In this document: in pieces, positions 1 to 26,932 of the stretch
How the letters are laid out: each line of letters opens with the position of its first letter
Numbering within the stretch: position 1 is the stretch's first letter
NCBI GenBank assembly: GCA_030747075.1
Contig: JASLLL010000033.1
Coordinates: 1 to 26,932 of the forward strand
DNA length: 26,932 nt
Direction of reading: 5' to 3'
Source: Gemmatimonadota bacterium
GTDB taxonomy: Bacteria; ARS69
The notes under the pieces: model-generated
What the model saw: the letters and a program-made list of their open reading frames with translations, nothing else
Database searches by the model: none
What the model was told of the DNA's origin: nothing
Translations under genes and position numbers: made by a program

Positions 1-380
1 GGCTGGCACTTCTGGCGTTGCTCCGGACGCGGGAGCGGACCGTCGGGGAAATGGTGGAGGCGTTGGGAGCCCCCCAGCCCCGGGTTTCGCGCCATCTGAA
101 GGTGCTTCGCAATGCGGGGCTTGTGGCGGACCGCCGGGAGGGCCGCTTCATCCGATACGGGCTTACCCCTTCCTCAAGCTGGAGTGTCGAGATTCGCGAC
201 TGCCTGCGCGGTCTGCTGAACGAACGAGAGGCACCCCGCCGCCCGCGCGGGAGGAAGGCTCTCTCCCGTCGCGAGGAGCGCCCCCTTCCCGAAGCCGCCC
301 CGGCTCCGGAGCCCCGGCAGGAAGTCCCCGCTCCGGGCGAGCGACTGCGCTCGCAGGACATCGAAACACATCTGCTGTAG
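1..380 (+). CDS. ArsR-type winged-helix transcriptional regulator, 5' end outside the window
   Basis: The frame is open from the first base, and the start codon lies upstream of the window. A TTG at 18 is inside the likely first helix, because the preceding in-frame residues (LALLA) continue it. The visible part has the ArsR/SmtB pattern: TVGEMVEALG, then the recognition helix PRVSRHLKVLRNAGLV, then a wing-like RREGRFIRYGL. Such proteins are small dimeric repressors, often metal- or stress-responsive. No Cys metal-binding motif is seen in the surviving part, so the ligand is unknown. The last 45 or so residues are a Pro/Arg/Glu-rich tail, probably disordered and unusual for the family. It converges on the protease gene on the other strand. 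The fold is clear; the target is unknown. Confidence 0.8.
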   Translation, partial: LALLALLRTRERTVGEMVEALGAPQPRVSRHLKVLRNAGLVADRREGRFIRYGLTPSSSWSVEIRDCLRGLLNEREAPRRPRGRKALSRREERPLPEAAPAPEPRQEVPAPGERLRSQDIETHLL

Positions 381-395
381 GGGTGGATTGAGGAG

Positions 396-430
396 ACGGG
401 GAGCGGCCCGAAGACCGCGCCCCGCTCCGT
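396..430. terminator. possible bidirectional hairpin between convergent genes
   Basis: Arms at 396-406 and 422-430 pair over nine bases with a two-G bulge, and the loop is about 15 bases. It lies in the 59-base gap between the convergent regulator and protease genes. There is no T-tract on either side, so it would be a weak or Rho-assisted terminator at best. Confidence 0.3.
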
Positions 431-439
431 CCCGGGTGC

Positions 440-2731
440 TTATCGCAGGAGTACCATCCGACGCGTCTCTACTCCGAGCGGAGTCGTGAGCCGGTAGAAG
501 TAGCTGCCTGCGGCAAGACGGTGGCCTGACTCGTCTGTGCCGTCCCAGGAAAGACTGTGCGTGCCGGAGGAGAAGACCCCCCGGTGAAGCGTCCGGACGC
601 GGCGCCCGGAAATGTCGAGGATCTCCAGAGAAGCCACGCCCTCCGCAGCCATCGCGAAGGAGATGACCGTCTCCGGCCCGAACGGGTTCGGCAGGTTCTG
701 GGCGAGCATGGCGCCGCGCGGGAACTCCGATACGCCGGTCAGCGGCGATCCCACATCCACCGTACTCACATTGGGAACCTTGTTGAACCCGGTCACGACC
801 AGTTCCACACTGGCGAGTGTCCCGATGACGGAAGAGTCGTACGGGATGGAAGCCAATCCGGCGCCGTCCGCGTACGCGGAGCCGAGGAGCGTCGCGTTGT
901 CGTTGATGGCGGCCAGCGCGCCCGGTTCCGTGGTGACCTCGAAGGTGGCCAGACCCGCATCCACATAGCCCGCGTGAGAGACTGCGAGCGCGGTCGGCGC
1001 GCCCGTTCTCATGTGCAGTGCCGGGTCGCCGAAGATGTGCCAGTTCTTGAACTCGCTGATCCCGTTGGATCCATAGCTGTCGATCATGTCGCAGGAACCG
1101 TTGAAGCAGAGCCCGCCCCAGGTGCGCTTGGCACCCGCGACCAGTAGATCCACCAGTTCATCCTGCGCACGCATCGGGGTGGCCCACTGCTGGTTGACCG
1201 TGGACGCGTACATGGCGACGCCGCCGGTCGGGACTCCGGAATCCGTCGCGCGCAGCCATACCTCCGCAAAGCAGGTCATGCTCATGAAGGCGCCGTTCAC
1301 GCACCCGACATTGATGATGCAAGGCAGCATGTCGTGGTTGGTCAGCGCATTCACATTCGATGAAGAGAAGCCCGATGTGACCCACTGGGTTTCCGTGCCG
1401 TGGCCCGCATAGTTGATGAAGCTGCGGCCCTCATTGAACGCGGAAGAGAGCATGGCCCTGGACGGAGAACCCGAAGCGTCTCCGCCTCCGCGGCTTCCAT
1501 CATAGAACTCGTCCACATGGGTGTAGGTGAAGCCGAGCAGGTCCGTGCGGATGTTCCGAATGTGCCTCCAGTCCGCCTCGCCGTTGTCCCCGTAGCCCTG
1601 GCCCTCGCTTGAGGCGATTCCAGTGGCCTTTTCGTACCAGGTTCCGGCCGGGTCCGGCTGGCTTTCGTACTCCACGGTCTTCTGCACCTGAAGGTCCACC
1701 TGCGCCGCGTTCTGCGCGGAGATCCGGCCCACGAAGGCGTCGGGGTAGTTGTCGCCGCCAGCCAGCAGGGTCAGTCGAGGATCCGCCGCCGCTCCGCCGT
1801 TCGTGAGATAGGGCATCTGCGGTCCGTCACCGACCAAAAGGAGGTAGGCCATTCCATCCGTGTTGTAGAAGTTCTGCACATACGACTGCACGCCGCTTGC
1901 GCTCCCGCCCGCGGCGGAAAGCGTGACGAGCGTCGTCGGAATGCCCATTCGGTTCCGCCAGTCCACGAGCGGTTGCATCGAGCTGGCAAAGGCGTCGTAG
2001 GTGATGATGAGCATGCTGCCCGTTTCGCCGACCGGCGTGTACCGAAGGAACTCCTCGTAGTTGAGGAAGTGACGGCGGTAGATCTTCTCGAACTCCTCCA
2101 CCCGCTTGTCAGGGCGGTCCGCAAGGACATTCACATGCCCGGGGCCGGTCGCCTTCACTTCCACCGTGATCGACGAGTAGACGCGCAGCGTCCCGGTAAC
2201 CGGGTTCCACTGGAACGGATCCACCTCAATGACCACACCGCGGACATCTCTCATGATGTAGGGATCCCGGAGTCGTGCCAGGTCTCCCGGGAAGAAGGCG
2301 TCTTCCTCGTAGGAGGCCCCAAACTCCCAGGGCACATCCGAAGGCATCACATCTCGGGTGATGGGTCCCTTCGAAGGCGCGATCCGCACTCCTGGAAAGT
2401 CCACAAACTCCGACGCCACGATCGTCGCGGTGACGGCGGCGTCGTCCGGGATCACCAGAGACTCGCGGAATCCCGGCACTGCCGGCAGTCCGGTCTCCTG
2501 AAGGCGAACGCCCCCGTCCCAGTGAATGATGCCGTAGGTCTCCCCGTGGACCTGGATGTCCTGAATCTGGAAGCTCCCCGTCCGGAAGGTCACGACTGTG
2601 GACAGAACCCCGGAGGACTCCAGCTGAATCGCATGGGATTCCGGCAGCATCTCGGTGGTGTAGTCACGCCCCGCTGCGGGTCCGGCCACCATGGCCGACA
2701 GCAACAGGCAGATAGGGATCGAACGGAACAT
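440..2731 (-). CDS. secreted gingipain-like cysteine protease (peptidase family C25) with FlgD-like C-terminal domain
   Basis: 763 residues from the ATG at 2731, chosen because it is preceded by GAGGAGA and opens a clean signal peptide (MFRSIPICLLLSAMVAGPAAG); the frame is open further upstream but without such a signal. Residues 40-235 resemble the C25 propeptide region. Residues 238-580 are the caspase-like protease core, with the pattern FINYAGHGTE placing the catalytic His at 444 and NVGCVNG placing the catalytic Cys at 477, followed by the family's FGDPALHM motif near 567-574. About the last 95 residues form a FlgD-type Ig-like domain (NPFGPETVISF, ILDISGRRVRTL, WDGTDESGHRLAAGSYFYRL) like those ending many secreted proteins of FCB-related phyla, where it may act as a sorting or anchoring domain. 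Expected role: exported Arg- or Lys-type endopeptidase. Cleavage specificity cannot be read from sequence. Confidence 0.88.
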   Translation of the reverse strand: MFRSIPICLLLSAMVAGPAAGRDYTTEMLPESHAIQLESSGVLSTVVTFRTGSFQIQDIQVHGETYGIIHWDGGVRLQETGLPAVPGFRESLVIPDDAAVTATIVASEFVDFPGVRIAPSKGPITRDVMPSDVPWEFGASYEEDAFFPGDLARLRDPYIMRDVRGVVIEVDPFQWNPVTGTLRVYSSITVEVKATGPGHVNVLADRPDKRVEEFEKIYRRHFLNYEEFLRYTPVGETGSMLIITYDAFASSMQPLVDWRNRMGIPTTLVTLSAAGGSASGVQSYVQNFYNTDGMAYLLLVGDGPQMPYLTNGGAAADPRLTLLAGGDNYPDAFVGRISAQNAAQVDLQVQKTVEYESQPDPAGTWYEKATGIASSEGQGYGDNGEADWRHIRNIRTDLLGFTYTHVDEFYDGSRGGGDASGSPSRAMLSSAFNEGRSFINYAGHGTETQWVTSGFSSSNVNALTNHDMLPCIINVGCVNGAFMSMTCFAEVWLRATDSGVPTGGVAMYASTVNQQWATPMRAQDELVDLLVAGAKRTWGGLCFNGSCDMIDSYGSNGISEFKNWHIFGDPALHMRTGAPTALAVSHAGYVDAGLATFEVTTEPGALAAINDNATLLGSAYADGAGLASIPYDSSVIGTLASVELVVTGFNKVPNVSTVDVGSPLTGVSEFPRGAMLAQNLPNPFGPETVISFAMAAEGVASLEILDISGRRVRTLHRGVFSSGTHSLSWDGTDESGHRLAAGSYFYRLTTPLGVETRRMVLLR

Positions 2732-2853
2732 GGTCTCTCCTCGGTCCGCTACGGAAGTCGCAGCGAATGGAAATGGACCGGGGGATGCCCCGGCGGATGA
2801 TCGGGGACACGCGCACCCTGCCTCGATCCGGGGGGAATCGATAGAACCCACGG

Positions 2854-2859
2854 AGTATA
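2854..2859 (-). promoter_or_regulatory. possible -10 box for the C25 protease gene
   Basis: The minus strand reads TATACT here, five of six matches to the sigma-70 -10 consensus, in the divergent region about 120 bases upstream of the protease start. No good -35 hexamer lies at 16-18 bases, so support is weak. Confidence 0.25.
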
Positions 2860-2906
2860 GCGCACTCGGACCGGGAACTCCAGAATCCGGTGAGGTGAGG
2901 ATTCCC

Positions 2907-4007
2907 GTGGCGGGTCATTCCGATCCGCGATACCGTTCCGACATGGATGCGGACCGCTTCCGGACAGGATTCCTTCTTCTTCTCGTCACGGCCATCTCGG
3001 CTTTGTTCGCCGTGATGATCCGCGACTTCCTCATGACGCTTCTCCTGGCGGGAGTGTTCGCCGGGCTGGCCGCTCCCTTGTTCCGGCGAATCGTCGGCCT
3101 CCTTCGCGGGAAGCGCTCGGCGGCGTCGATGGTGACGGTCCTGGCGCTTCTCGTCTGTGTGGCGGGTCCGCTTTTCGCCATCCTGGGTGTGGTGGCGGCG
3201 CAAGCGCTGCGCATTACCGACTCCGTGCGCCCCTGGATCGACGAGCAGCTCGCCAACCCCGGCGCGCTGCCCGTCTTGCTGGAGCGTCTTCCCGGCCTGG
3301 ACCGGCTGGTTCCCTACCGCGAGCAGATTCTCCTCCGGCTGGGGGACCTGGTCGGCAGCGCGGGCGGCTTCCTTCTCGACAGCGCCTCCGCCGCCACGCG
3401 AGGCACCGTCGCGTTTCTCTTCCAGTCGTTCGTGTTCGTCTACGCGCTCTTTCACTTCCTTCTCCACGGGGACGCGCTCCTTCGCCGAATCCTCTACTAC
3501 ATCCCGCTGGATGAACCCGCCGAGTCCCGCCTCGTGGAGCGGTTCACCTCCGTCACGAGAGCGACCGTGCGCGGCACGCTCGTGATCGGGCTTCTGCAAG
3601 GCGGGCTGGCCGGGGTCGCCTTTGCCGTGGTCGGAATCCCGGGCGCGGTATTCTGGGGCACCATGATGACGCTTCTATCCGTCATCCCCGGGGTGGGGAC
3701 GGCCCTCGTCTGGGTGCCCGCCGCGCTGATTCTCCTGGCGACCGGGGAGACGGTGCCGGGTGTGGGCCTTGCGGTCTTCTGCGGGCTCATCGTCGGGAGC
3801 CTGGACAATCTCCTGCGACCTCGGCTTGTGGGTCGGGACACTCAGATGCCCGACCTCCTGATCTTCCTCGGGACCGCCGGCGGAATCCTCCTGTTCGGCA
3901 TTCCGGGGTTTCTCGTGGGACCGATCCTCGCCGCGCTCTTCGTGACGGTCTGGGAGATCTACGGGCATGTCTTCCGCGACATCCTGCCCGGCCCTCGCTC
4001 GTCTTGA
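2907..4007 (+). CDS. AI-2E family transporter (multipass inner-membrane permease)
   Basis: 366 residues from the GTG at 2907, chosen because AGGTGA at 2893-2898 matches the anti-Shine-Dalgarno sequence with 8-base spacing. The ATG at 2943 (MDADRFRTGF...) has no such site but gives the more typical N-terminus, so it remains possible. The protein has about seven to eight hydrophobic segments: two near the N-terminus, one near the middle (VAFLFQSFVFVYALFHFLL), and a cluster in the C-terminal half. The C-terminal signature DNLLRPRLVGRDTQMPDLLIF followed by GIPGFLVGPILAALFV is characteristic of the family (formerly UPF0118, including TqsA and PerM). Members export or import diverse small solutes or Na+/H+; the substrate here is unknown. 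It is divergent from the protease gene and stands alone. Confidence 0.85.
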   Translation: MAGHSDPRYRSDMDADRFRTGFLLLLVTAISALFAVMIRDFLMTLLLAGVFAGLAAPLFRRIVGLLRGKRSAASMVTVLALLVCVAGPLFAILGVVAAQALRITDSVRPWIDEQLANPGALPVLLERLPGLDRLVPYREQILLRLGDLVGSAGGFLLDSASAATRGTVAFLFQSFVFVYALFHFLLHGDALLRRILYYIPLDEPAESRLVERFTSVTRATVRGTLVIGLLQGGLAGVAFAVVGIPGAVFWGTMMTLLSVIPGVGTALVWVPAALILLATGETVPGVGLAVFCGLIVGSLDNLLRPRLVGRDTQMPDLLIFLGTAGGILLFGIPGFLVGPILAALFVTVWEIYGHVFRDILPGPRSS

Positions 4008-4032
4008 CACAGTCCCGGGGGCTTTCTACCCT
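4004..4032 (+). promoter_or_regulatory. sigma-70-type promoter for the regulator-moxR operon
   Basis: A perfect TTGACA (4004-4009, overlapping the stop codon of the transporter gene) is followed after 17 bases by TACCCT (4027-4032). The -10 keeps only the TA...T frame of the consensus, which is common in G+C-rich genomes. The start codon at 4071 would follow a leader of about 30 bases. Confidence 0.5.
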
Positions 4033-4070
4033 CGCTCGCGCACTGTACCTGCCCTGCACCGGAGGCACTG

Positions 4071-5483
4071 ATGGCTTGCGCCCGGATCCTCATCGTCGAT
4101 GATGACGAGTCCATCCGCTCTTCGATGGAGCGGGTTCTTTCGTATGAAGGATACGATGTCCGGTGCGCCGCCTCCGGTCCGGAAGCGCTGGACGCGCTGG
4201 CGGACCGGCGCATGGATCTCGCGCTCTTCGATATCAAGATGCCCGGAATGGATGGGCTGGAGCTTCTGGAACGCGTCGGGAAGGCGCACCCGGATCTCGT
4301 GTGCATCATGGTCTCGGGCCACGGGACGGTGCAGACCGCCGTGGAAGCCGCCAAGCTGGGTGCGTTCGACTTTCTCGAGAAGCCTCCCGACCGCGACCGG
4401 GTTCTTCTCACCATTCGCAACGGGCTGGCTCAGTCGCGGCAGGCTTCGGAGATTGCCAACGCAAGGCGGAGGCTGGCGCGTGACGACCGCATCGTGGGGG
4501 AGAGCGACGCCATCCGTCAGGTGCTGGAGCGCATCGCGAAGGTCGCACCGACGCAGGCCACCATTCTCATCACCGGAGAGAATGGTACCGGGAAGGAGCT
4601 CGTGGCTCGCGCCATTCACCGGGAGAGCACACGCCGGGACGGAGCCTACATTCAGCTCAACTGTGCGGCCATTCCGGAAGACCTGATCGAGTCCGAACTC
4701 TTCGGGCACGAAAAGGGCGCGTTCACGGGCGCCACCTCCCGCCGCGAAGGGAAGTTTGAGCTGGCCGACGGCGGGACCATTCTGCTGGACGAAATCGGCG
4801 ACATGAGTCCGACCGTCCAGGCGAAAGTGCTTCGCGTGCTGGAAGAAGGGCAGTTCGAGCGCGTGGGGGGATCGCGGGCGATCTCCGTGGATGTTCGCAT
4901 TCTCGCGGCGACGAACCGGGATCTCCCGGCCGCCGTGGAGGACCGGTCATTCCGCGAGGATCTCTTCTTCCGGCTCAATGTGGTGCCGATCCGCGTTCCC
5001 GCGCTTCGCGAGCGACCGGGAGACATCGCCGGACTGGTGGAGCACTTTCTGACGCGGTATTGCGAGCGCGAGAAGTGCCCGGGCGTGACCGTGGACCCGG
5101 AGGTGGTGGAGCGCCTCATGGTACGCGCGTGGCCGGGGAATGTTCGCGAACTGAGAAACACGGTGGAGCGGATGGCCATCCTTGCGTCCGGAAGTCGGCT
5201 GAGCGTGGCGGATCTTCCGGCACCGGGGGCGGGCGGGGCGAGCACCCGGGACGACCCCGCGGCGGATGCAAGCACCTATGACGAGTTCCGCGAACGGTCG
5301 GAACAGGCGTTCTTCCGCCAGAGGCTGGAGCGCCACGGGTGGAATGTGAAAGACACGGCGGAGGCGCTGGCCATGCAGCGCAGCAACCTCTACCGGAAGA
5401 TCGAGAAGTACGGACTCACCCGAGAGGGGGGGGAACGCAAGCGCACACCGGACGGGGGAGATCTCCCGGGAGGAACGGCTTGA
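4071..5483 (+). CDS. NtrC-family sigma-54-dependent response regulator
   Basis: 470 residues; ATG at 4071 follows GGAGG with proper spacing. Residues 5-118 are a receiver domain with acidic residues D10-D12, phospho-acceptor D54 (LFDIKMPGMDG), S82 and K104. Residues 140-370 are the sigma-54-interacting AAA+ domain: Walker A GENGTGKE (169-176), the GAFTGA loop (216-221) that contacts sigma-54, Walker B LLDE (238-241), and AATNRDL. A Fis-type helix-turn-helix follows near 435-455 (DTAEALAMQRSNLYRKI). All key residues are present, so it should be a functional phosphorylation-controlled enhancer-binding activator. No histidine kinase gene is in the window, so its partner is elsewhere. It overlaps moxR by four bases, which suggests regulator and module are made together. 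Confidence 0.95.
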   Translation: MACARILIVDDDESIRSSMERVLSYEGYDVRCAASGPEALDALADRRMDLALFDIKMPGMDGLELLERVGKAHPDLVCIMVSGHGTVQTAVEAAKLGAFDFLEKPPDRDRVLLTIRNGLAQSRQASEIANARRRLARDDRIVGESDAIRQVLERIAKVAPTQATILITGENGTGKELVARAIHRESTRRDGAYIQLNCAAIPEDLIESELFGHEKGAFTGATSRREGKFELADGGTILLDEIGDMSPTVQAKVLRVLEEGQFERVGGSRAISVDVRILAATNRDLPAAVEDRSFREDLFFRLNVVPIRVPALRERPGDIAGLVEHFLTRYCEREKCPGVTVDPEVVERLMVRAWPGNVRELRNTVERMAILASGSRLSVADLPAPGAGGASTRDDPAADASTYDEFRERSEQAFFRQRLERHGWNVKDTAEALAMQRSNLYRKIEKYGLTREGGERKRTPDGGDLPGGTA

Positions 5484-6499
5484 ACGCATCGAACGAACCG
5501 CACGACATCCAGGCCGTCGAAAGGCTGAAGGACGCGCACGGGAGGATTCTCACAGAGGTTCACAAGGTCGTGATCGGGCAGGATCGCGTGATCGACGATC
5601 TCCTGACCGCCATCCTTTCCAATGGCCACTGTCTGCTCGTCGGGGTGCCCGGGCTTGCGAAGACGCTGCTTGTGTCCACGCTGGCGCGCGTTCTGGATCT
5701 GGAGTTCAGCCGAATCCAGTTCACGCCGGACCTCATGCCGTCGGACATTACCGGGACGGATGTTCTGGAAACGGAAGAGGGGACCACTCATCGGCATTTT
5801 CGGTTCATCCGGGGACCGGTCTTCGCGAACATTGTTCTTGCGGACGAGATCAACCGTACGCCCCCGAAGACGCAGGCCGCGCTTCTTCAGGCCATGCAGG
5901 AACGCGAAGTGACCGCCGGCGGCAACACCTACGACCTGCCGCTGCCGTTCTTCGTGCTGGCGACGCAGAACCCCATCGAGCAGGAAGGAACCTATCCGCT
6001 TCCCGAGGCGCAACTCGACCGCTTCATGTTCCACATCCATGTGGACTACCCGACCGGGGCGGAAGAGTGCCGGATCGTGGAGGAGACCACCTCCGCCTAC
6101 CACGCGGATCTGGAGCGGGTTCTGGGCGCCGAGGAGATTCTCTCACTTCAGACGCTCGTGCGGCGCGTACCTGTGGCGGAGGATGTGCTGCAATACGCCG
6201 TCGGACTGGTGCGGGCGACGCGGCCGAAGTCGGATACGGCTCCTGCGTTCGTGCGCGACTGGGTGAGCTGGGGTGCGGGTCCCCGCGCGAGCCAGTATCT
6301 GGTGCTCGGCGCGAAGACGCGCGCCATTCTCGACGGCAGGCACACCCCCGCCCGGGAGGATGTGCAGGCGGTGGCGCGGGCGGTTCTTCGCCACCGGATC
6401 CTCACCAACTTCAACGCCGAGGCCGAAGGCGTGGATCCCGTCGATATCGTGGACCGGCTCGTTGAAAGTGTGGAGGCGACCGGGGCCGTGTCGTCGTGA
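5480..6499 (+). CDS. MoxR-type AAA+ ATPase
   Basis: 339 residues from a TTG at 5480 that overlaps the regulator's stop codon (TTGA) and is preceded by GGGAGGA six bases away. The frame is open upstream, but that stretch overlaps the regulator and looks non-coding. Walker A is GVPGLAKT (55-62), Walker B VLADE (119-123), sensor 1 ATQNP (161-165), with the MoxR hallmark GTYPLPEAQLDRF near 170-182. MoxR proteins are chaperone-like AAA+ ATPases that act with vWA proteins to assemble or activate complexes such as metal-cofactor enzymes or envelope machinery. The next two genes, DUF58 and vWA, are the standard partners and are joined by four-base overlaps. The client complex is not identifiable here. 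Confidence 0.93.
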   Translation: MNASNEPHDIQAVERLKDAHGRILTEVHKVVIGQDRVIDDLLTAILSNGHCLLVGVPGLAKTLLVSTLARVLDLEFSRIQFTPDLMPSDITGTDVLETEEGTTHRHFRFIRGPVFANIVLADEINRTPPKTQAALLQAMQEREVTAGGNTYDLPLPFFVLATQNPIEQEGTYPLPEAQLDRFMFHIHVDYPTGAEECRIVEETTSAYHADLERVLGAEEILSLQTLVRRVPVAEDVLQYAVGLVRATRPKSDTAPAFVRDWVSWGAGPRASQYLVLGAKTRAILDGRHTPAREDVQAVARAVLRHRILTNFNAEAEGVDPVDIVDRLVESVEATGAVSS

Positions 6500-7404
6500 G
6501 CCGGGTGCGCCAGAGCTCCCGTTCGCCCCTCCTGGACGCGGCCACGGTCGCCCGCCTCGCCGGGCTGGAGATTCGTGCGCGTGCCGTGGTGGAGGGGTTC
6601 GTTGCGGGGCTTCACAAGAGTCCGTACAAGGGGTTCAGCGTGGAGTTCGCGGAGCATCGGCAGTACATGCCGGGAGACCCCGTGCGGAACATCGACTGGA
6701 AGGTCTTTGCGAAGTCCGACCGCTACTTCGTGAAGGAGTTCGAGGAGGAAACGAACCTCCGCGCATACCTGGTGCTCGACGCATCCGCATCGATGGGTTT
6801 CGCCTCGGGCGAGGTCGGCAAGTTCGAGTATGCGCGTACGCTCGCGGCGTCCCTCTCCTGGCTGATGCTCCGGCAGCAGGACTCTGTCGGCCTGCTTCTT
6901 TTCGATCAGGGGATTCGGCGCTTTATTCCCCCAAGGTCCGCCGGGCATCACCTTCGCGTGCTCCTGACCGAACTGGAGGCGGCGCGCCCGTCTTCGGGGA
7001 CGGGGATTGCGAAAACGCTCCACGAGCTGGCCCTGCGAATCCGTCGGCGTGGTCTGGTGTTTCTGATGAGTGATCTCTTCGACGACCCCGACGAAGTGCT
7101 GCGCGGGTTGCGGCACTTTCGGCACCGGCGGCACGAGGTTGTCGTGTTTCACCTGCTGGATCAGGCGGAGCGCGAGTTCGGGTTCGACCGGGAGGCCATC
7201 TTCCGCGACATGGAGTCCGGCCGCGAGATGCTGGTGCGCCCCTGGGAGCTGCGCGCGGAGTATCGCGGGGCGGTGGATGCGTGGATCGCCAGGCTGCGTG
7301 ACGGGTGCCGGGAGGCGGGCGTCGACTATGTCCCGATCGACACCTCCACGCCGTTCGACACCGCGCTCCACGCCTACCTGCGCAAGCGGAGCCGTCTGGG
7401 ATGA
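6496..7404 (+). CDS. DUF58 domain protein (MoxR partner)
   Basis: 302 residues, starting at a GTG that overlaps the moxR stop (GTGA). The DUF58 core lies near residues 40-85 (KGFSVEFAEHRQYMPGDPVRNIDWKV is broken by no gaps; key residues are the PGD and the IDW). It is followed by a von Willebrand A-like fold whose metal site is DASAS (95-99). There is no signal peptide or membrane segment, so it is cytosolic or peripheral. DUF58 proteins accompany MoxR ATPases and vWA membrane proteins in many bacteria; their exact biochemical function is not established. It overlaps the downstream vWA gene by four bases (ATGA). Confidence 0.9.
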   Translation: MSRVRQSSRSPLLDAATVARLAGLEIRARAVVEGFVAGLHKSPYKGFSVEFAEHRQYMPGDPVRNIDWKVFAKSDRYFVKEFEEETNLRAYLVLDASASMGFASGEVGKFEYARTLAASLSWLMLRQQDSVGLLLFDQGIRRFIPPRSAGHHLRVLLTELEAARPSSGTGIAKTLHELALRIRRRGLVFLMSDLFDDPDEVLRGLRHFRHRRHEVVVFHLLDQAEREFGFDREAIFRDMESGREMLVRPWELRAEYRGAVDAWIARLRDGCREAGVDYVPIDTSTPFDTALHAYLRKRSRLG

Positions 7405-17034: not shown

Positions 17035-17060
17035 CCTCTCCACGGAGGGAGGGGTGGCGA

Positions 17061-18664: not shown

Positions 18665-19872
18665 CCGCCCGGCTTCCCGGTCCGGCGGTCGTCTTCCTGA
18701 CGGCGATGCTTGTGGCGCTCCCTCCCGTTTCCCGGGGTGCCGCGGATGAAACGCAGGTGCGCGAGGAGATTCAGCGCGAGGAGACGGAGCTTCAGCGGAT
18801 TGAATCCGACCTCGACCGCACGCGGGATCGAACGCGTGCTCTTTCGGACAAGGAGACGCGGGTTCTTACGGAACTGAACCGGATCGACTCGGATCTTACA
18901 CGAGGAGAGGCGGCCGTATCCAGAATGCGTGCCCGCGAGGAGAGTCTGGCGAAGGAGGCGGCGCGGGCCGGGGAACTGCTGGTGCAGGAAGAGGCGCGGC
19001 TGGACGAGAGGCGCGAGATTCTTCGGCGCAGGCTCCGGAACATCTACATGTACGGAGAGCGAGCCGGGCTTCAGGTGCTCTTGAGCGCGACTTCCGCCGT
19101 GGACCTCGTGCGGCGCTTCGACTGGCTGCTTCTGGTGGCGGCGCAGGATCGCCGACTGGAGCGGGATGTGCGCGTCGCCGTGGAGGCGGTGGCCGACGCG
19201 AGCACCGAACTGGAATCGCGGCACGCGGAGTCGGAGGCGGTCCGCCGGGATGCCGAACAGGAGCAGGCCGGGCTGCGTCGCAGTCAGGGTGACCGCCGGA
19301 AGCTGCTCGAATCGGTCCGTGGAGAGCGGGAAGGCCACGAGCGCATTGCCCGGGAACTGGAGTCGGCGCGCGCCAGCGTGCAGGAACTTCTGGCGGAGCT
19401 GGAGGAACAGGCGCGTCGCGCGCGTCGTGCAGGAGAACTCCCGGCGGGCGGAACCGGGTTCGCCGGGGCGAAGGGCGGGCTTCCGTGGCCGGTGGAAGGG
19501 CGTCTGTCGAGGAGGTTCGGCGTGAAGCGGGACCCCCGGTTCGGCACCTCGACCTTCAGCGGCGGACTGGACATCCAGGCGCCTGCGGGAACGGAGGTCA
19601 TCGCGGTTCACCGGGGTCGCGTGGACTATGTGGACTGGCTCCCCGGGTACGGCCAGTGCATCATCCTGAATCACGGGAACGGTTACTACACGCTGTACGC
19701 CCACACGGAGCGTGTGTTTGTGGCGGCGGGAGATGGGGTCTTTGCCGGGGAGCGCGTCGCGACCGTGGGGGATACGGGATCGCTGACGGGAGACGCGCTG
19801 CACTTTGAGATCCGCAAGGACGCCGAACCCGTGGACCCGTTGCCGTGGCTCGGCCCGGCGCGCCTCCGGTAG
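18658..19872 (+). CDS. envC: EnvC-like murein hydrolase activator (degenerate LytM/M23 domain)
   Basis: 404 residues from the ATG at 18658, overlapping ftsX. A signal peptide ends near residue 28 (PPVSRGAA). Two long coiled-coil stretches follow (about 30-105 and 165-270), as in EnvC and other FtsX partners. Residues 285-403 are a LytM fold with the EnvC-like sequence VDWLPGYGQCIILNHGNG. The active-site pattern is broken: the first zinc-binding His of HxxxD is Ser301 (Asp305 kept), and the first His of HxH is Ala380 (His382 kept); His349 remains. Loss of a zinc ligand and a catalytic His predicts an activator rather than an enzyme, as in E. coli EnvC. It is placed directly behind ftsEX, as expected of its partner. 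Confidence 0.88.
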   Translation: MVTARLPGPAVVFLTAMLVALPPVSRGAADETQVREEIQREETELQRIESDLDRTRDRTRALSDKETRVLTELNRIDSDLTRGEAAVSRMRAREESLAKEAARAGELLVQEEARLDERREILRRRLRNIYMYGERAGLQVLLSATSAVDLVRRFDWLLLVAAQDRRLERDVRVAVEAVADASTELESRHAESEAVRRDAEQEQAGLRRSQGDRRKLLESVRGEREGHERIARELESARASVQELLAELEEQARRARRAGELPAGGTGFAGAKGGLPWPVEGRLSRRFGVKRDPRFGTSTFSGGLDIQAPAGTEVIAVHRGRVDYVDWLPGYGQCIILNHGNGYYTLYAHTERVFVAAGDGVFAGERVATVGDTGSLTGDALHFEIRKDAEPVDPLPWLGPARLR

Positions 19873-19901
19873 CGTTGCTTGACCGGGCGGTCCCTCCCGT
19901 T

Positions 19902-19935
19902 GGACACTCCCGAACCCCACAGCCCGGGAGAGTCC
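19902..19935 (+). promoter_or_regulatory. leader hairpin that covers the metG ribosome-binding site
   Basis: GGAC-A-CTCCCG (19902-19912) pairs with CGGGAG-A-GTCC (19925-19935): ten base pairs with one A-A mismatch and a 12-base loop. The right arm contains GGGAG, the Shine-Dalgarno site for the GTG at 19938. It could mask the metG start, and could also serve as a terminator-like structure for the ftsEX-envC run, although no T-tract follows. Confidence 0.45.
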
Positions 19936-19937
19936 GC

Positions 19938-21482
19938 GTGAAGCGCAAGTTCTACCTCACGACCGCCATTGACTATGTGAACTCAAAACCGCATCTGGGC
20001 ACGGCCTACGAGAAGATCGCCGCCGACTGCCTCGTTCGTGCACGCCGACTTGCGGGCGATGAGGTTCTCTTCGTCATGGGCAACGACGAGCACTCCATCA
20101 ATGTCGCGCGTCGGGCGGAGGAAGAGGGCTTGGCCCCGCTTGCGTATTGCGATCGCATGGGAGACGAGTTCCGCGCCGCATGGAAACGCCTGAACATCTC
20201 CTTCGACGATTTTATCCGGACGACCGAACCCCGGCACCGGTCCGCTGTCGAGGAGATCATCCGCCGCGTTCGTGATCGCGATCACATCACGACCTCCCGG
20301 TACAAGGGCTGGTACTGCGAAGGGTGCGAGGCGTTCTTCACCGGGAAGGATCTGGAGGATGGCGTCTGCCCGACCCACCGGAAGAAAGCTCGCTGGGTGG
20401 AGGAGGAAAACTACTTCTTCCGGCTCTCGCACTTCCGGGACCGGCTGCTGGAGCACATTCGGGAGCATCCGGAGTTCATTCTTCCCGCGACGCGCCGCAA
20501 CGAGGTGGTCTCATTTCTGGAGGCGGGGCTGGACGACATCTCGATCTCGCGCGCAGGAGAGTCGTGGGGCATTCCCTTCCCGGACGACCCCGGACACACG
20601 GTCTATGTCTGGTTCGATGCACTGACGAACTACCTGTCGGCCGTCGGGTTCGGATCGGATGAGGAGCGCTGCGAAAAGTGGTGGCCCGCGGATGTCCACC
20701 TGATCGGAAAGGACATCACGCGGTTTCACTGCATCATCTGGCCCGCCATGCTGATGGCCGCAGAGGTGCCGCTCCCGCGCACGGTCTATGCGCACGGCTT
20801 CATCACCCACTCCGGCGAGAAGATGTCGAAGTCGCTCGGGAACATCGTGAACCCGCTGGATGTCGTGGACATCACCGGTGCGGATCCGCTGCGCTACTTC
20901 CTTCTGCGGGAGATTACTTTCGGAAAGGACGGGGACTTCGACTGGGAGCGTTTTGTTTCTCGGTACAATGCGGACCTTGCCAACGATCTCGGCAACCTCG
21001 TGAAGCGCACGGTGGACATGACGGCGAAGTTCCTCAACGGGAAGATCCCCCGGGGCGCCGGCGGAGGGACTTCGCTGGCTGAAGTCGCAACCGGGGCGAC
21101 GGCGAAGGCACTGGCGTGCTACGAGTCGTTCGACCTTTCGGGAGCGCTGAGCGCGGCATGGGAACTGGTGCGGGAGTCGAACCGGACGGTGCAGGAACTT
21201 CGGCCGTGGGAAATCGCGAAAGACCCCGCGCGCGGCGATGAACTGAACGCGGTGCTGTCGGACCTTCTGGAGGCGGTGCGGGTGGTGTCTGTACTGGCGA
21301 GTCCGGCGATGCCGGAGCGGACGGGATTGATCCGGGAGCGCCTGGGGCTTGCCGGCGACGCCGCGCCCGGCCTTGTGGACACAGACTGGCGTGCGGGATC
21401 CGGATGGAGCGTGAACCCGGGCGACCCGGTCTTCCCGCGCATCAAGAAGGACGAATCCCCCGCGCCGCCGGCTTCCCCATGA
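19938..21482 (+). CDS. metG: methionyl-tRNA synthetase
   Basis: 514 residues from the GTG at 19938, seven bases after GGGAG. The class I motifs are PHLGTAYEK (HIGH-type, His19-Thr22) and KMSKS (295-299). A single zinc-knuckle-like insertion has C127-E-G-C130 and C144-P-T-H147, the arrangement seen in Thermus-type enzymes, rather than the double knuckle of E. coli. The anticodon-binding helical domain follows. The C-terminal EMAP/Trbp111 tRNA-binding domain of longer forms is absent, and that is a normal variant. It charges tRNA-Met. It overlaps tatD by four bases (ATGA). The hairpin at 19902-19935 may tune its translation. Confidence 0.95.
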   Translation: MKRKFYLTTAIDYVNSKPHLGTAYEKIAADCLVRARRLAGDEVLFVMGNDEHSINVARRAEEEGLAPLAYCDRMGDEFRAAWKRLNISFDDFIRTTEPRHRSAVEEIIRRVRDRDHITTSRYKGWYCEGCEAFFTGKDLEDGVCPTHRKKARWVEEENYFFRLSHFRDRLLEHIREHPEFILPATRRNEVVSFLEAGLDDISISRAGESWGIPFPDDPGHTVYVWFDALTNYLSAVGFGSDEERCEKWWPADVHLIGKDITRFHCIIWPAMLMAAEVPLPRTVYAHGFITHSGEKMSKSLGNIVNPLDVVDITGADPLRYFLLREITFGKDGDFDWERFVSRYNADLANDLGNLVKRTVDMTAKFLNGKIPRGAGGGTSLAEVATGATAKALACYESFDLSGALSAAWELVRESNRTVQELRPWEIAKDPARGDELNAVLSDLLEAVRVVSVLASPAMPERTGLIRERLGLAGDAAPGLVDTDWRAGSGWSVNPGDPVFPRIKKDESPAPPASP

Positions 21483-22261
21483 TCGACTCGCACTGCCACC
21501 TGAACTTGCCCGACTTCGCGGAAGATCTGGAGGCGGTGCTTGCGCGTGCGCGGGACGCGGGCGTCCATGGCATGCTGGTGCCGGGGATCGGGCTGGAAGA
21601 GTCGCGCCGCGCGGTGTCTATCGCCCGGGAACACGCGGAGGTTCGCGCGGCGGTCGGCATTCACCCGCACGAGTCGCTGCAGTGGGGGGACGCCGCGCGG
21701 AGGGAACTGAGCGAACTGGCGCGTGAAGAGAAAGTGGTGGCGGTGGGGGAGATCGGGCTGGACTTCTTTCGCGACTGGTCTCCGCGCGCAGCGCAGCGCA
21801 CCGCCTTTCGCGAGCAACTGCTTCTGGCAAAGGAGCTGGATCTGCCCGTGGTGATCCATGATCGGGACGCGCACGACGAGGTTCTGGAGGCGCTGGAGAG
21901 CCCGGACCTGGCCGGGCTTCGCGGCGTGCTCCACTGCTTCTCGGGGAGCCCCGCTCTCGCGGAGCGTGCGGTGGCTCTCGGGTTCCACATTTCGTTCACG
22001 GGATCGCTGACCTACGGCAAGGGCAAGGCGGATCGCGTGCTGCGTCGTGTCCCGGCGGAGCGTCTTCTGCTGGAGACGGATTCGCCGTACATGACGCCGG
22101 TGCCGCACCGGGGGAAGCGGAACGAACCCTCGTTCGTGCCGTTCGTGGCGGACACGCTGGCGGAGAAGCTGGCGATTCCCCGGGCTGAGGTCTGCCGCCT
22201 GACGGACGCGGCAGCGGCGCGGCTCTTCGGGTTTCCAGCGGATGCGGCCCATGACGCGTGA
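21479..22261 (+). CDS. tatD: TatD family metal-dependent DNase
   Basis: 260 residues, ATG overlapping the metG stop. TIM-barrel hydrolase with metal ligands visible: His5 and His7 (DSHCHL), the Glu of VAVGEIGLDFF, the His of VIHDRDA, the His of LHCFSG, and the Asp of LLLETDSPY. The GIHPHE motif of the family is near residue 60. TatD proteins are 3'-5' DNases linked to DNA repair and quality control; a few act on D-aminoacyl-tRNA. The metG-tatD-rsmA order is the one found in many Gram-positive genomes. The gene is complete. Confidence 0.94.
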   Translation: MIDSHCHLNLPDFAEDLEAVLARARDAGVHGMLVPGIGLEESRRAVSIAREHAEVRAAVGIHPHESLQWGDAARRELSELAREEKVVAVGEIGLDFFRDWSPRAAQRTAFREQLLLAKELDLPVVIHDRDAHDEVLEALESPDLAGLRGVLHCFSGSPALAERAVALGFHISFTGSLTYGKGKADRVLRRVPAERLLLETDSPYMTPVPHRGKRNEPSFVPFVADTLAEKLAIPRAEVCRLTDAAAARLFGFPADAAHDA

Positions 22262-23081
22262 CGAAGAGGGCCCGGCGGCGATTCTGGAGCGTCACGGCCT
22301 TGTCCCCCGGAAGCGATGGGGGCAAAACTTTCTCCACGACCGCGCCGTGGCGCAGCGAATCGTGGACGCGGCGGGGATCTCACCCGGGGACCGCGTGCTG
22401 GAGATCGGGCCGGGGCTTGGAGCGCTCACCGGGCCGCTTCTGGATGCGGGAGCGGTTGTCACGGCGGTGGAGCTGGACCGGGGGATTGCGGCCTGCCTCA
22501 CGGATCGACTCGGCGGACACGAAGGCCTGGAGATCATCGTGGCGGATGTGCTTCGCGTGGACCCGGCCAGACTCCCGAACGATCCGGTTCGGCTGGTGGC
22601 CAATCTGCCCTACTCCATCACCGGCCCGATTCTGTCGATGATTCTCACCAGTCCGGATCGTTTCCATTCCGCCGTTCTGATGGTACAGAGAGAGGTCGCG
22701 CGACGACTGGTCGCCGGATCCGGAGGGCGGGAGATCGGCGCGCCCGCGGTGCTCCTGCGATTGCTGTATCGCGTGAAGAAGCAGTTCGATGTCGGAACAG
22801 GCGCGTTCTTCCCGGCGCCGGGGGTGGTCTCAACCGTTCTGTCGCTGGAGCGGATCGCGGGCAGTCGCCTGTCCCCGGCGGTGGCCGATGCCGTCAATCG
22901 CGCTTATCGTCAGCGGAGGAAGATGATCCGCAAGACGCTGAAGGACACGGTCGCCGCCGAAGGCGAGCTGGTGCGGCGGCTCCGAGGGCTGGGTCGCTCC
23001 GAAGAGGCGCGCCCCGAAGAGCTGGAACCGGAGGATTGGCCGGAACTCGTGGATTCCGGGCCGAAGGAGGAACGCGCGTGA
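22242..23081 (+). CDS. rsmA: 16S rRNA dimethyladenosine transferase RsmA (KsgA)
   Basis: 279 residues from the ATG at 22242; an in-frame ATG at 22251 is equally possible, and neither has a strong ribosome-binding site. Both overlap the end of tatD, which suggests coupled translation. Motifs: GQNFLHD (27-33), SAM-binding VLEIGPGLGALT (52-63), ELDRG, and the catalytic NLPYSIT (121-127). A C-terminal helical domain follows (RQRRKMIRKTLK). The enzyme dimethylates two adjacent adenines near the 3' end of 16S rRNA during 30S maturation. The last 25 residues are acidic and probably disordered. It overlaps the next gene by four bases (GTGA). Confidence 0.95.
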   Translation: MRPMTRDEEGPAAILERHGLVPRKRWGQNFLHDRAVAQRIVDAAGISPGDRVLEIGPGLGALTGPLLDAGAVVTAVELDRGIAACLTDRLGGHEGLEIIVADVLRVDPARLPNDPVRLVANLPYSITGPILSMILTSPDRFHSAVLMVQREVARRLVAGSGGREIGAPAVLLRLLYRVKKQFDVGTGAFFPAPGVVSTVLSLERIAGSRLSPAVADAVNRAYRQRRKMIRKTLKDTVAAEGELVRRLRGLGRSEEARPEELEPEDWPELVDSGPKEERA

Positions 23082-25279
23082 CTCGCGCCGGGTGGGTTCT
23101 GTTGGCGGTGGTGTGTGCGCTTCCGGCGTGCCCGGCCGCACCGGCCCACGCGGACTCCGCGGAGGGTTCGTCCGCGTCGGACACGACGAGCGCGGCTTCC
23201 GCAACGCCGGACTCCGCCGCGACCGCATCGAGGAAAATGGTCAGCGAGAGCGGTGCCGTCTCCGTGTTCGAGGAGTTGCAGCCCGGCGAAGGAATCGACG
23301 GATTCTGGTGGGAGTTCGACACCGAAGCGGAACTGGCGCGGCTCCTGAACGATGAACTAAAGGATGAGCGTCCGGATCCGCTCGTGGACGCCTTCGGATT
23401 TGAGCTGACGATCCCGGACACCATCCGCGCGCTCCGGGATTCGGTCACCGCGGTCGCGGACTCGATCCTTGCGGAGCGGATCCAGCTGGAGACACGGTTC
23501 ATCCCCAAGTACTCGTCCCGGTACCGGGAGCGAAAGGACGACTTCACGCTGGAGCACGAGTTCGATGTCAACTACCCGCTCTCCGATCATGCCACGGTCA
23601 GCACTCGCCTGAAGAGCCAGAACAGCTTCAACGAGTCCACCGGGAAACTTCGCGATGATCGGTCCATCTCGTCCACATTCAGTTTTGTCTTCTCGGATGA
23701 TCTGACCTCGTCGCTCAGCGTTCAGCGTTCCGACAACCGGCAGGAGAGAAACGCGGAACTGGAATCCGAAGGAAGCAACACCAGCGTCAACGGCCGCGGT
23801 CGCTTGTCGAGGGAGGTGCCGGTTCTCGGCAGCGTGGAAACTTCGGCGGGTTTGTCTGCGAGCGTGCGGGATTATGTCTCCCGGGGGACATCCGGATCGA
23901 ACAGCGGAGTGTCTCCCAGTTGGGGAGCAAAGGTCACGCGGACATTCGAAGGCGGGCAACTGGCCGCCAACTACACCGGAGACATTGAGCGCGCGCGTTC
24001 CGAGCAGACGCGTATCGGTGAGACGGAACCGGAGACCACCGACGACGCCAACAGCGGGCACACCATGAATCTGGCGTTGAACTACACCCTCCGGCCCGGC
24101 TGGGCGTTGCGCATCATCAGCGACAACTCAACCCGGGAGCTTCAGTACCTGAGTGCCGTGGACTCTCTCGCCGGGTTGCAGGAGACGCGCCGACAGAATC
24201 GGTCGGCGGTCCGGGGAGGTCTGGACGCGGAAGTGTTCGAGGGACTGACGGTCAAGTCCAAAGTGGAGATGACCCGGAACGAACAGACCTACTCGCTGCA
24301 GACGGGGCGGTATTCGGACATCGGTCGCCGGTCCGCCAATGTGGATATGGACTACGCGGGATGGGAGGGAGGCCGACTGCGCTTCGGCCTGGATCGATCC
24401 CGGGAGGATCGTGATTACAACAACACGCAGGCGGGGTCGATCGACAGGCAACAGGCTTCTGTTGATTACAACCAGGCGATCACGGCGAATGTGGATTTCG
24501 TCGGTGTGTTCTTCATGACGCTGGACCGCTACGCCTACGATGACTTCGACGGGAACCGGGGGGACCGGGATCTCAAGACGACGCGCGGGACATTCACGGT
24601 GCGGTACCGCCCCTTCTCGTCGCTCAATACGGACCTGCGTATAGAGGTTCGCCAGGCGGAGTCGATCAACATTCACCCGTCCAAGTCCCCGGACAACAAG
24701 ACGGACCATGTCTACCGGATCACGCCGTCGTACACATGGAAGCTGGGAGGCACGACGATTCGTGGTGAGTTCACCGCTGACGCGCGGTACGCGGTCTACG
24801 GCTTTCGGGAAGAGGACAACTTCCTGAACCGGACATTCTCGACGCGCCAGAAGGTACAGCACTCCTTTACGCCGCGTGTGTCGTCGGAGTTCACGGTGAC
24901 GGCGGATTTCCAGGACGAGGGGAGCTACTCCCGGACCGGACTGGACAACCGCCGACTCTTCTCACGCTCCCGGGAGATCCATCGATTCAGGACGCTGACG
25001 CAGGTGCGCTACACACCCGTCAAAGGAGTCCGACTGAACTTCCGGTATGCTCGCGACGGAGACGACCGCTACAGTCTGGGGCCGGGGAAAAGGACTCTGT
25101 CCACGCGGAGGCGCACGCAGGAACTTTCGCTCGGGCTCGACATGAGAAAGAGAATCACGAAGCATGTCTCGCTGGATCTCAAAGCGACCCGCACGCACAA
25201 GAGCGGGTTGACGATCTCCAATGTGGAGCGCGATTTCTTCAACATCACCGCGTCGGTGGACTACAAGCCGGGAGAGTGA
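23078..25279 (+). CDS. exported beta-strand-rich protein, probable outer-membrane barrel, unrecognised family
   Basis: 733 residues from a GTG at 23078 that overlaps the rsmA stop and follows AAGGAGGAAC. The signal region ends either at AHA-D (residue 26) or, if LPAC is a lipobox, at Cys18. A Ser/Ala/Thr-rich linker follows (27-52), then a mixed segment with Trp78-Trp79 and a helix near 115-138. From about 155 to the end the sequence is a long series of amphipathic strands alternating polar and hydrophobic residues, rich in Arg, Asp, Ser and Thr and almost without Cys, for example ANVDMDYAGW, GTFTVRYRPF, TLTQVRYTP and VRLNFRYARD. That is the pattern of an outer-membrane beta-barrel with perhaps 30 or more strands. 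The last strand lacks the usual terminal Phe. I cannot assign a family. Parts recall the repeated strands of large FCB barrel proteins such as SprA, but this is an impression only. Confidence 0.7.
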   Translation: MTRAGWVLLAVVCALPACPAAPAHADSAEGSSASDTTSAASATPDSAATASRKMVSESGAVSVFEELQPGEGIDGFWWEFDTEAELARLLNDELKDERPDPLVDAFGFELTIPDTIRALRDSVTAVADSILAERIQLETRFIPKYSSRYRERKDDFTLEHEFDVNYPLSDHATVSTRLKSQNSFNESTGKLRDDRSISSTFSFVFSDDLTSSLSVQRSDNRQERNAELESEGSNTSVNGRGRLSREVPVLGSVETSAGLSASVRDYVSRGTSGSNSGVSPSWGAKVTRTFEGGQLAANYTGDIERARSEQTRIGETEPETTDDANSGHTMNLALNYTLRPGWALRIISDNSTRELQYLSAVDSLAGLQETRRQNRSAVRGGLDAEVFEGLTVKSKVEMTRNEQTYSLQTGRYSDIGRRSANVDMDYAGWEGGRLRFGLDRSREDRDYNNTQAGSIDRQQASVDYNQAITANVDFVGVFFMTLDRYAYDDFDGNRGDRDLKTTRGTFTVRYRPFSSLNTDLRIEVRQAESINIHPSKSPDNKTDHVYRITPSYTWKLGGTTIRGEFTADARYAVYGFREEDNFLNRTFSTRQKVQHSFTPRVSSEFTVTADFQDEGSYSRTGLDNRRLFSRSREIHRFRTLTQVRYTPVKGVRLNFRYARDGDDRYSLGPGKRTLSTRRRTQELSLGLDMRKRITKHVSLDLKATRTHKSGLTISNVERDFFNITASVDYKPGE

Positions 25280-25286
25280 GGACACC

Positions 25287-25877
25287 GTGGGAAACGGGGA
25301 TTCGCCATTTCGAGGTGCGCTGACGGTTGCGCTGCTCGCAATGCTTGCGGGAGCGGGGTGCGATCTCTTCCAGACTCGCCCGCCGATGGAAGGCGGGGAC
25401 GAGGCCTCCGTCTGGGAGCCGCCGACTTCGCCGGAGTTGATTCTCCTCAACCTGGAGACCGCCTTTGAGCAGGGGATCTTCAACGACTATCGTCGCGCGC
25501 TGACAGAGGACTTCGCCTTCCATCCGGACGAGACCGACTCCTTTGCGGTGGAGGTGGAGCGTCCCGGAGAAAACACCTGGGCGGACTGGGATCGGGATGT
25601 GGAGACGGAAACCGCCGAGAGCATCCGTGGCGGAGTCGACTCGGTGGATGTGGCCTTCACGCTGCTTGCGGAAGAAGGGGATGCCGACGATCGCCTTCGC
25701 AAGGAGGACTACTCGCTCGTCCTTTACCTGCCCGGAGAGACGAAGACCTACGCGGGCGAGGCCTGGATCCGCGTGCGGCAGGTCTCCGGCGAGTGGTTCA
25801 TTTACGAGTGGACGGACATCGCCAGCTCACCGAGCCACGAATCATGGGGGCTCCTGCGCGGGAGAAACCGCCTGTAG
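25287..25877 (+). CDS. small lipoprotein, NTF2-like family suspected
   Basis: 196 residues from a GTG at 25287, preceded by TGAGGA; the frame is open upstream but enters the previous gene. The hydrophobic N-terminus ends at AGAGC with Cys25, an imperfect lipobox. The mature part starts SPELILLNLETAFEQGIFNDYRRALTEDF in sequence order; key features are the Asn-Leu and Asp-Tyr helix and then DFAFHP. A conserved-looking W (TWADWDRDVETE) follows, then four predicted strands, ending in GEWFIYEWTDI. This helix-then-curved-sheet pattern with a terminal W-x-D fits the NTF2-like/SnoaL fold. It resembles the lipoprotein at 26173 in plan. No function can be assigned. The gene lies seven bases after the barrel-protein gene and probably shares its transcript. 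Confidence 0.72.
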   Translation: MGNGDSPFRGALTVALLAMLAGAGCDLFQTRPPMEGGDEASVWEPPTSPELILLNLETAFEQGIFNDYRRALTEDFAFHPDETDSFAVEVERPGENTWADWDRDVETETAESIRGGVDSVDVAFTLLAEEGDADDRLRKEDYSLVLYLPGETKTYAGEAWIRVRQVSGEWFIYEWTDIASSPSHESWGLLRGRNRL

Positions 25878-25907
25878 GGAGGAGCGCCGGGGCCGATCTG
25901 CTCCTCC
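25878..25907 (+). terminator. hairpin immediately after the lipoprotein stop codon
   Basis: GGAGGAGC (25878-25885) pairs perfectly with GCTCCTCC (25900-25907) around a 14-base loop. It begins at the base after the stop codon, where an operon terminator is expected. There is no T-tract, so it may work with Rho or mainly protect the 3' end. The following 77 bases up to the next promoter show nothing else. Confidence 0.5.
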
Positions 25908-25984
25908 GGACAGTCCGCGAATGGCGAAGGCTTGCGGATTCTGGCTGATTCCAACTGCTCTGTGGCACAGATTTCTCCGCCGGA

Positions 25985-26013
25985 TTGACACGCGGGTGCG
26001 GTTTCCCTAGAAT
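25985..26013 (+). promoter_or_regulatory. strong sigma-70 promoter for the terminal lipoprotein gene
   Basis: A perfect TTGACA (25985-25990), a 17-base spacer and TAGAAT (26008-26013, five of six). This is the best promoter match in the window. Transcription should begin near 26020, giving a leader of about 150 bases before the GTG at 26173. Confidence 0.7.
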
Positions 26014-26025
26014 GGCCGCGTTCCG

Positions 26026-26115
26026 ATGTCCCCTCTGCCGGGGGACGCCCCTTGAGAGGACCTTTTTCGGGAGAGTTGCGCGCAAGTTGCTACGGTTGGC
26101 CCCCCATTGGGCCGA
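26026..26115 (+). promoter_or_regulatory. structured leader with alternative hairpins
   Basis: Hairpin A is GTCCCC (26028-26033) with GGGGAC (26041-26046). Hairpin B pairs CCTCT (26032-26036) with AGAGG (26055-26059) outside GGGG/CCCC (26040-26043 with 26048-26051), and is followed two to three bases later by five T (26063-26067), a terminator-like form. A and B share bases and cannot coexist. A nine-codon reading frame (26026-26055, MSPLPGDAP) ends inside B. A third hairpin pairs TTGGCCC (26096-26102) with GGGCCGA (26109-26115). A perfect ten-base palindrome TTGCGCGCAA is at 26076-26085. The layout suggests attenuation or another leader control, unproven. Confidence 0.4.
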
Positions 26116-26172
26116 TGAAGTTCCTAGCCCCGCAGTCGACCTGAACCCGCCATCTCTGGAAGGGGAAAGCCC

Positions 26173-26757
26173 GTGGTGTCCATGACTCATCGCCTCCGGA
26201 ACCTCGCAGTTCTCTCCGGACTGTGTGCTCTGCTGTTGTTCCTGCCGGGTTGTCCCTTGAGTCCGGATTCGGATGACGGTGGTGGCGGCGGCGGCGACAC
26301 GCGGATTCCTGAGCGAGACAGCATTTCCAATGTGGTGGTGTATCTTCAGGAAGTCTGGAACCAGCGCCTCTATACACACTACGAACAACTGCTGCACGAC
26401 AGCTTCGAGTTCTTCCCGCTCAGCGGTGACCCTGACCTTGAATGGGTGGAGGGCGACTCCTGGGGCCGGTCGATGGAACTCGGCATGGTCAACCATATGT
26501 TCGATCCGAACTATTCCGGAGACGAGCCTCCGGTAGAGGACATCAGCCTCGATCTGGACATTCTGTCCCAGCGCGAAGTGAACGATTACCCGGGCGCGGT
26601 GGAGGTTACCTGTAATGTGAACATGGAGATCCTCAAGGACGCGTCGAATGGTTGGCGGGTGAACCAGAAGACGCGCCTTCTGATATTGCCGGATCCGGAC
26701 GAGGCCGGTCTTCTTCAGGTCATCAAGCAGTGGGATCTGGACGACGCCGACGGTTAA
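26173..26757 (+). CDS. small lipoprotein, NTF2-like family suspected
   Basis: 194 residues from the GTG at 26173, the start best spaced from GGAAGGGGAA. GTG 26176 and ATG 26182 are alternatives that leave the signal peptide intact. The lipobox is LPGC with Cys27, followed by an acidic and Gly-rich linker (DSDDGGGGGGDT, 34-43). The mature part begins with a helix (SNVVVYLQEVWNQRLYTHYEQLL), then DSFEFFP, SWGRSMELGMVNHMF, several strands and a final IKQWDLDD. The same order of elements occurs in the lipoprotein at 25287, so the two look like distant paralogues on the NTF2-like plan, exported to the periplasmic face. It has its own strong promoter and a long leader, so it is regulated separately. 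No function is recognised. Confidence 0.75.
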   Translation: MVSMTHRLRNLAVLSGLCALLLFLPGCPLSPDSDDGGGGGGDTRIPERDSISNVVVYLQEVWNQRLYTHYEQLLHDSFEFFPLSGDPDLEWVEGDSWGRSMELGMVNHMFDPNYSGDEPPVEDISLDLDILSQREVNDYPGAVEVTCNVNMEILKDASNGWRVNQKTRLLILPDPDEAGLLQVIKQWDLDDADG

Positions 26758-26762
26758 TTCTC

Positions 26763-26920
26763 AGCCCGGGTTCCTCGCCGCGCTCTGCTGCGGCTTTGTC
26801 CGGCGGCGCCTGACCTGCGTCGCTGGAACGGAATCGATCCTCTAGCCCGGGTTCCTCGCCGCGCTCTGCGGCGGCGTTGTGCCGCGCCGCCAGTCCAGCG
26901 GCGGGGGACCGGAAACGATC
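26763..26920. repeat. two tandem copies of an 81-base intergenic repeat
   Basis: Copies begin at 26763 and 26844. The first 26 bases (starting AGCCCGGGTTCC) are identical, and the remaining 51 or so align without gaps at clearly lower identity, both ending in CGATC. Each copy contains a GC-rich hairpin; in copy 2 it is CGCCGC (26857-26862) with GCGGCG (26868-26873). No reading frame is convincing here. It begins a few bases after the lipoprotein stop, so it may also act as a terminator. Confidence 0.7.
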
Positions 26921-26932
26921 CGCGACGGGGCG

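Follow-up and report, generated by a model that had tools for sequence, protein, structure and literature searches.

Near-absence of ACGT from a Gemmatimonadota genome, the probable footprint of a restriction system that was recently lost or is missing from the assembly

The window analyzed here is a whole contig of 26,932 bases (C33, positions 1..26932) from the assembly of a Gemmatimonadota bacterium. Its G+C content is 65.8%. A preliminary description, made by reading the letters, held that the palindrome ACGT never occurs in it. This raises the question of what could remove a four-base word from a stretch of bacterial DNA. The observation itself is sound. A script count and a search agree that both strands are free of ACGT, in coding and intergenic DNA, where 71.9 sites are expected from a second-order Markov model built on trinucleotides, 84.7 from composition, and 90.5 +/- 9.6 from dinucleotide shuffles. 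With 71.9 sites expected, the Poisson probability of finding none is 6e-32. Most other palindromic tetramers are near expectation, in keeping with those that had been listed as present. Two palindromes not named then are scarce in the window, CTAG (3 versus 12 expected) and AATT (1 versus 17). The sole AATT lies at 26756..26759 and stands against expectations of 30.2 (shuffles) and 17.1 (Markov).

The absence is not peculiar to the window. The assembly comprises 2,669,199 bases in 61 contigs and is rated 100% complete and 0.96% contaminated. Somewhat over half of it, 1.53 Mb, was read base by base; the remainder was covered by pattern and family searches, apart from contigs C59–C61 (2,634 bases), which are given as N. 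When all tetramers were ranked in 1.35 Mb, ACGT fell at the bottom, with 121 occurrences versus 3,811 expected. Leaving out six loci in which the sites are clustered gives the main sample of 1.24 Mb, in which 48 ACGT are left, an observed/expected ratio (O/E) of 0.014 and a density of 39 per Mb. These 48 are scattered singletons with varied flanks. The under-representation thus holds against expectations corrected for composition and subwords, in the sample as in the window. For the whole 2.67 Mb, the pattern SSACGTSS was used as a proxy for ACGT and the reversed pattern as its control; the counts are 36 and 1,104, respectively.

In four relatives from the same family, SSACGTSS occurs 3,947–5,730 times per genome, above each relative's own control. 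The comparison within the phylum rests on five genomes of one family, the relatives representing four other genera. Since ACGT is plentiful in all four, the loss arose in this genus; that is, it is confined to the lineage of one genus within its family. A wider comparison comes from 75 Mfd-scan loci, each with 10 or more ACGT expected, among which neither the organism nor its congeners are represented: the lowest ACGT O/E there is 0.62.

Outside the window, ACGT is also found in clusters, in the rRNA contigs and in acquired islands. Three islands contain 18, 16, and 12 ACGT in approximately 3.5, 3.1, and 2.5 kb, and AATT is present in them as well. One island, on L019 (C46, 78–4280), has a gene for a secreted protein and is flanked by 267-bp direct repeats that are 97% identical, one copy of which lies at the end of contig C17. 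Contig C53 contains 7,425 bp identical to the DNA beyond this island, without the island. By its sequence, then, C53 appears to be a second allele lacking the insertion, and the island is apparently polymorphic. Another, on L020 (C41, 705–4648), encodes a C25 peptidase with a FlgD-type C-terminus, which the secreted protein of the L019 island resembles by inspection; it lies between direct repeats of ~270 bp (~272 bp, 96% identical). The remaining one, on L023 (C19, 16192–18498), encodes a reprolysin-like secreted protein, also with a FlgD-type C-terminus, and adjoins a tRNA-Glu gene at 18806–18883. ACGT-rich islands set in ACGT-free surroundings indicate that the word is tolerated now. As for the rRNA contigs, the 5′ parts of the 23S rRNA in L053 (C35, 1–2900) and L046 (C27, 75–3092) share only 76% identity across 621 nt, which means that one or both of these contig ends are foreign or chimeric.

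How the word was lost can be read from codon choice. Genes were called with a simple third-position G+C rule, and ACGT was compared with the number expected from synonymous codon use in each of the three frame offsets, ACG-T, AC-GT, and A-CGT (the hyphen marks the codon boundary). The ratios are 0.011, 0.013, and 0.018, respectively, whereas a 0.2 Mb control sample of the relatives gives 1.00, 1.08, and 1.31. The preliminary description had remarked on codon choice before Val, and the larger sample bears this out: NAY codons end in C in just 0.9% of cases before GT versus 66–80% before GA, GC, or GG, and in the relatives 81% end in C before GT. The Arg codon CGT drops from 11–15% to 0.2% when it follows A, with CGC and CGA used instead. 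Before T, Thr is encoded by ACC (67%), ACT (17%), ACA (16%), and rarely ACG (0.5%). Every escape route from ACGT is taken.

Two causes had been put forward at the outset, long-standing restriction at ACGT and cytosine methylation followed by deamination. Under the latter, a cytosine methyltransferase acting on ACGT would cause mutation to ATGT and ACAT, with no selection involved, and the loss should proceed only by these two words and spare the positions where they change the protein. Some of the data lean that way. ATGT is at 1.74 times its Markov expectation in the window, and ACAT and ATGT are at 1.29 times in the genome sample, although part of such excess in neighboring words is arithmetic, since ACG needs some next base. 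Thr ACA is used more before T, at 16%, than before other bases, at 5–10%. This is also the route inferred for ACGT loss in H. pylori (PMC10423294).

The frame test largely refutes deamination as the sole cause. In the A-CGT frame the deamination products, TGT and CAT, both replace Arg. A-CGT is nonetheless as depleted, at 1.8% of expectation, as the frames in which deamination is silent, and therefore the loss reflects selection and not deamination alone. Moreover, the CGC and CGA that take the place of CGT cannot be produced by deamination, ACG-T has mostly become ACC, and the genome has no match to the C5 methyltransferase family PF00145. Of the two original proposals, it is thus restriction that gains support; a purely mutational origin is very improbable, although, given the modest ACA excess, some deamination may have contributed as well. 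ACGT is removed through selection on DNA. In a simple mutation–selection–drift view, the codon ratios would correspond to a scaled selection of approximately 4 to 6 per site.

That the target is DNA, and not only mRNA, follows from the intergenic sequence. Strict intergenic stretches of the 1.24 Mb sample contain 5 ACGT versus 162 expected (O/E 0.031), so that the loss described for the intergenic DNA of the window extends through the sample, and coding frames and intergenic DNA are depleted alike. Selection at the level of RNA, such as by a ribonuclease cutting ACGU in mRNA, could in principle mimic the loss from the coding strand, as ACGT is palindromic; it would escape the intergenic result only if all of these stretches were transcribed and targeted, and we regard it as exceedingly improbable. 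An artefact of the library or assembly, such as cutting of the DNA at ACGT before sequencing, comes to mind with a draft in 61 contigs. Cutting could not produce tens of kb free of sites together with a matching shift in synonymous codons, and the ACGT-bearing islands and rRNA were assembled normally, which makes this reading close to negligible.

Other words point to the class of agent. In the 1.35 Mb, AATT is the second-lowest tetramer (126 versus 838 expected). Its O/E is 0.12 in the genome sample and 0.82 in the relatives, and relative to synonymous-codon expectation the values are 0.063 and 0.52. Six-base palindromes have a median O/E of 0.83 (0.79 in a size-matched subsample) versus 0.93 in the relatives; among them, GCCGGC stands at 0.35 versus 1.09 and CTCGAG at 0.36 versus 0.90. 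That is, palindromes are singled out: the two lowest tetramers are palindromic, and palindromic hexamers are below non-palindromic ones. The depletion of AATT and of six-base palindromes suggests that several Type II systems have acted in the past. Orthodox Type II restriction is known to select against palindromic tetramers on DNA (PMC4687349, PMC6286503).

The genes of such a system were sought next to this footprint. The five main methyltransferase families (PF00145, PF01555, PF02384, PF02086, and PF07669) are without a match in the whole assembly, so the genome-wide search for an ACGT methyltransferase was negative for these families; with endonucleases sought in part of the genome, the cognate pair of endonuclease and methyltransferase expected of a resident system was found neither in the genome nor in a close relative. 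As a positive control, 14 other genomes were searched, and each of the five families was matched in 9 to 14 of them; MT-A70 (PF05063) had no working positive control and is not counted among them. One relative, G001, has genes matched by PF01555 and PF00145; an ACGT-specific gene was seen neither in the genome nor in the relatives. No match to dndC (TIGR03183) was found in the genome, which gives no indication of Dnd phosphorothioation. The almost half of the genome outside the base-by-base reading was covered with the methyltransferase families and dndC only. In the part read base by base, a scan for methyltransferase motifs yielded no credible methyltransferase; a VVWNPPF match at L040:4242–7025 was set aside because the protein, on inspection, looks like a DEAD/DEAH helicase. 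PADLOC identified no restriction–modification gene among the 104 most codon-atypical proteins (~170–620 aa) of this part.

The same 104 proteins include AbiEi/AbiEii-type, RtcR-like, and sigma-factor-like matches. Separately, two codon-atypical genes at a contig end, L030 (C10) 2–862 and 951–2060, have no Pfam or PADLOC match; the former shows, by eye, a possible PD-(D/E)xK nuclease-like pattern, GHFDLAVL...LYAIEVKY.

A lost system would leave the genome without cognate enzymes too, and for this reason we file the case as a footprint rather than as an identified system. Rather than a resident system open to identification, the cause probably lies in the past or on DNA that was not assembled. 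We propose, as the probable explanation, a footprint left by an ACGT-cutting Type II restriction system that was lost recently or is not part of the assembly. The agent would be an orthodox Type II restriction–modification system with an endonuclease cutting ACGT. Imperfect methylation would make each remaining ACGT slightly costly, and over a long period synonymous and intergenic variants lacking the word would be fixed in this one genus lineage. The system would then have been lost very recently, or would lie on DNA missing from the assembly. We infer which enzyme acted, that it was lost, and when; the data themselves show the depletion, its uniformity over codon frames and intergenic DNA, its absence in relatives, and the lack of matches to the five methyltransferase families. 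The timing is tight: sites have come back at only ~1% of eligible positions, so that any loss must have been recent. Cases in which a site is avoided although its restriction–modification system is absent are documented and read as traces left by systems since lost (PMC4687349).

A narrower form of this proposal is that the ACGT system is still active and merely absent from the assembly, for instance on a plasmid or island that assembly left out on account of composition or coverage. The ~1% of eligible sites left is what continuing selection would give, and the assembly is imperfect, being in 61 contigs with at least one foreign or chimeric rRNA contig. Set against this are the rating of 100% completeness and the ACGT-rich islands, one of them apparently polymorphic, which would need prompt methylation. 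We consider a still-active system possible yet rather unlikely. More doubtful still is a genome without any resident DNA methyltransferase that is exposed to restriction encoded elsewhere, or to a resident cutter of an unfamiliar kind that would need no methylation, its sites being gone; against a resident cutter acting freely stand the leftover sites and the islands rich in ACGT.

As a restriction footprint in a bacterial chromosome the case is very strong, and it comes from a phylum that has been sampled sparsely; the frame test cleanly separates selection from deamination. If the enzymes are truly gone, sequence alone could be enough to date and name lost defence systems by such footprints, and islands bearing ACGT would be self-labelled recent imports.

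The kind of phenomenon is already known; its strength is unusual. As here, Rusinov et al. 2015 (PMC4687349) describe short palindromes that are selectively rare, also in genomes that lack the cognate system. O/E values under 0.1 are rarer among prokaryotes than among phages (PMC6286503), and compared with known cases of site avoidance, 0.01–0.03 across a whole bacterial chromosome is extreme. The confinement of the effect to one genus within its family is shown here. The same site is recognized by MaeII of Methanococcus aeolicus, a Type II enzyme cutting A^CGT with an m5C partner (PMC10113651); the MaeII methyltransferase is of the m5C kind, whereas the present genome has no PF00145 match. A parallel in word and density is H. 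pylori with M.Hpy99XI (m5C), where East Asian strains contain ~53 ACGT per Mb, compared with 39 here outside the islands, and the loss is attributed largely to deamination (PMC10423294). There, ACGT has gone chiefly to ATGT and ACAT and many strains have the methyltransferase; here, all routes have been taken, in a genome with no C5 methyltransferase match.
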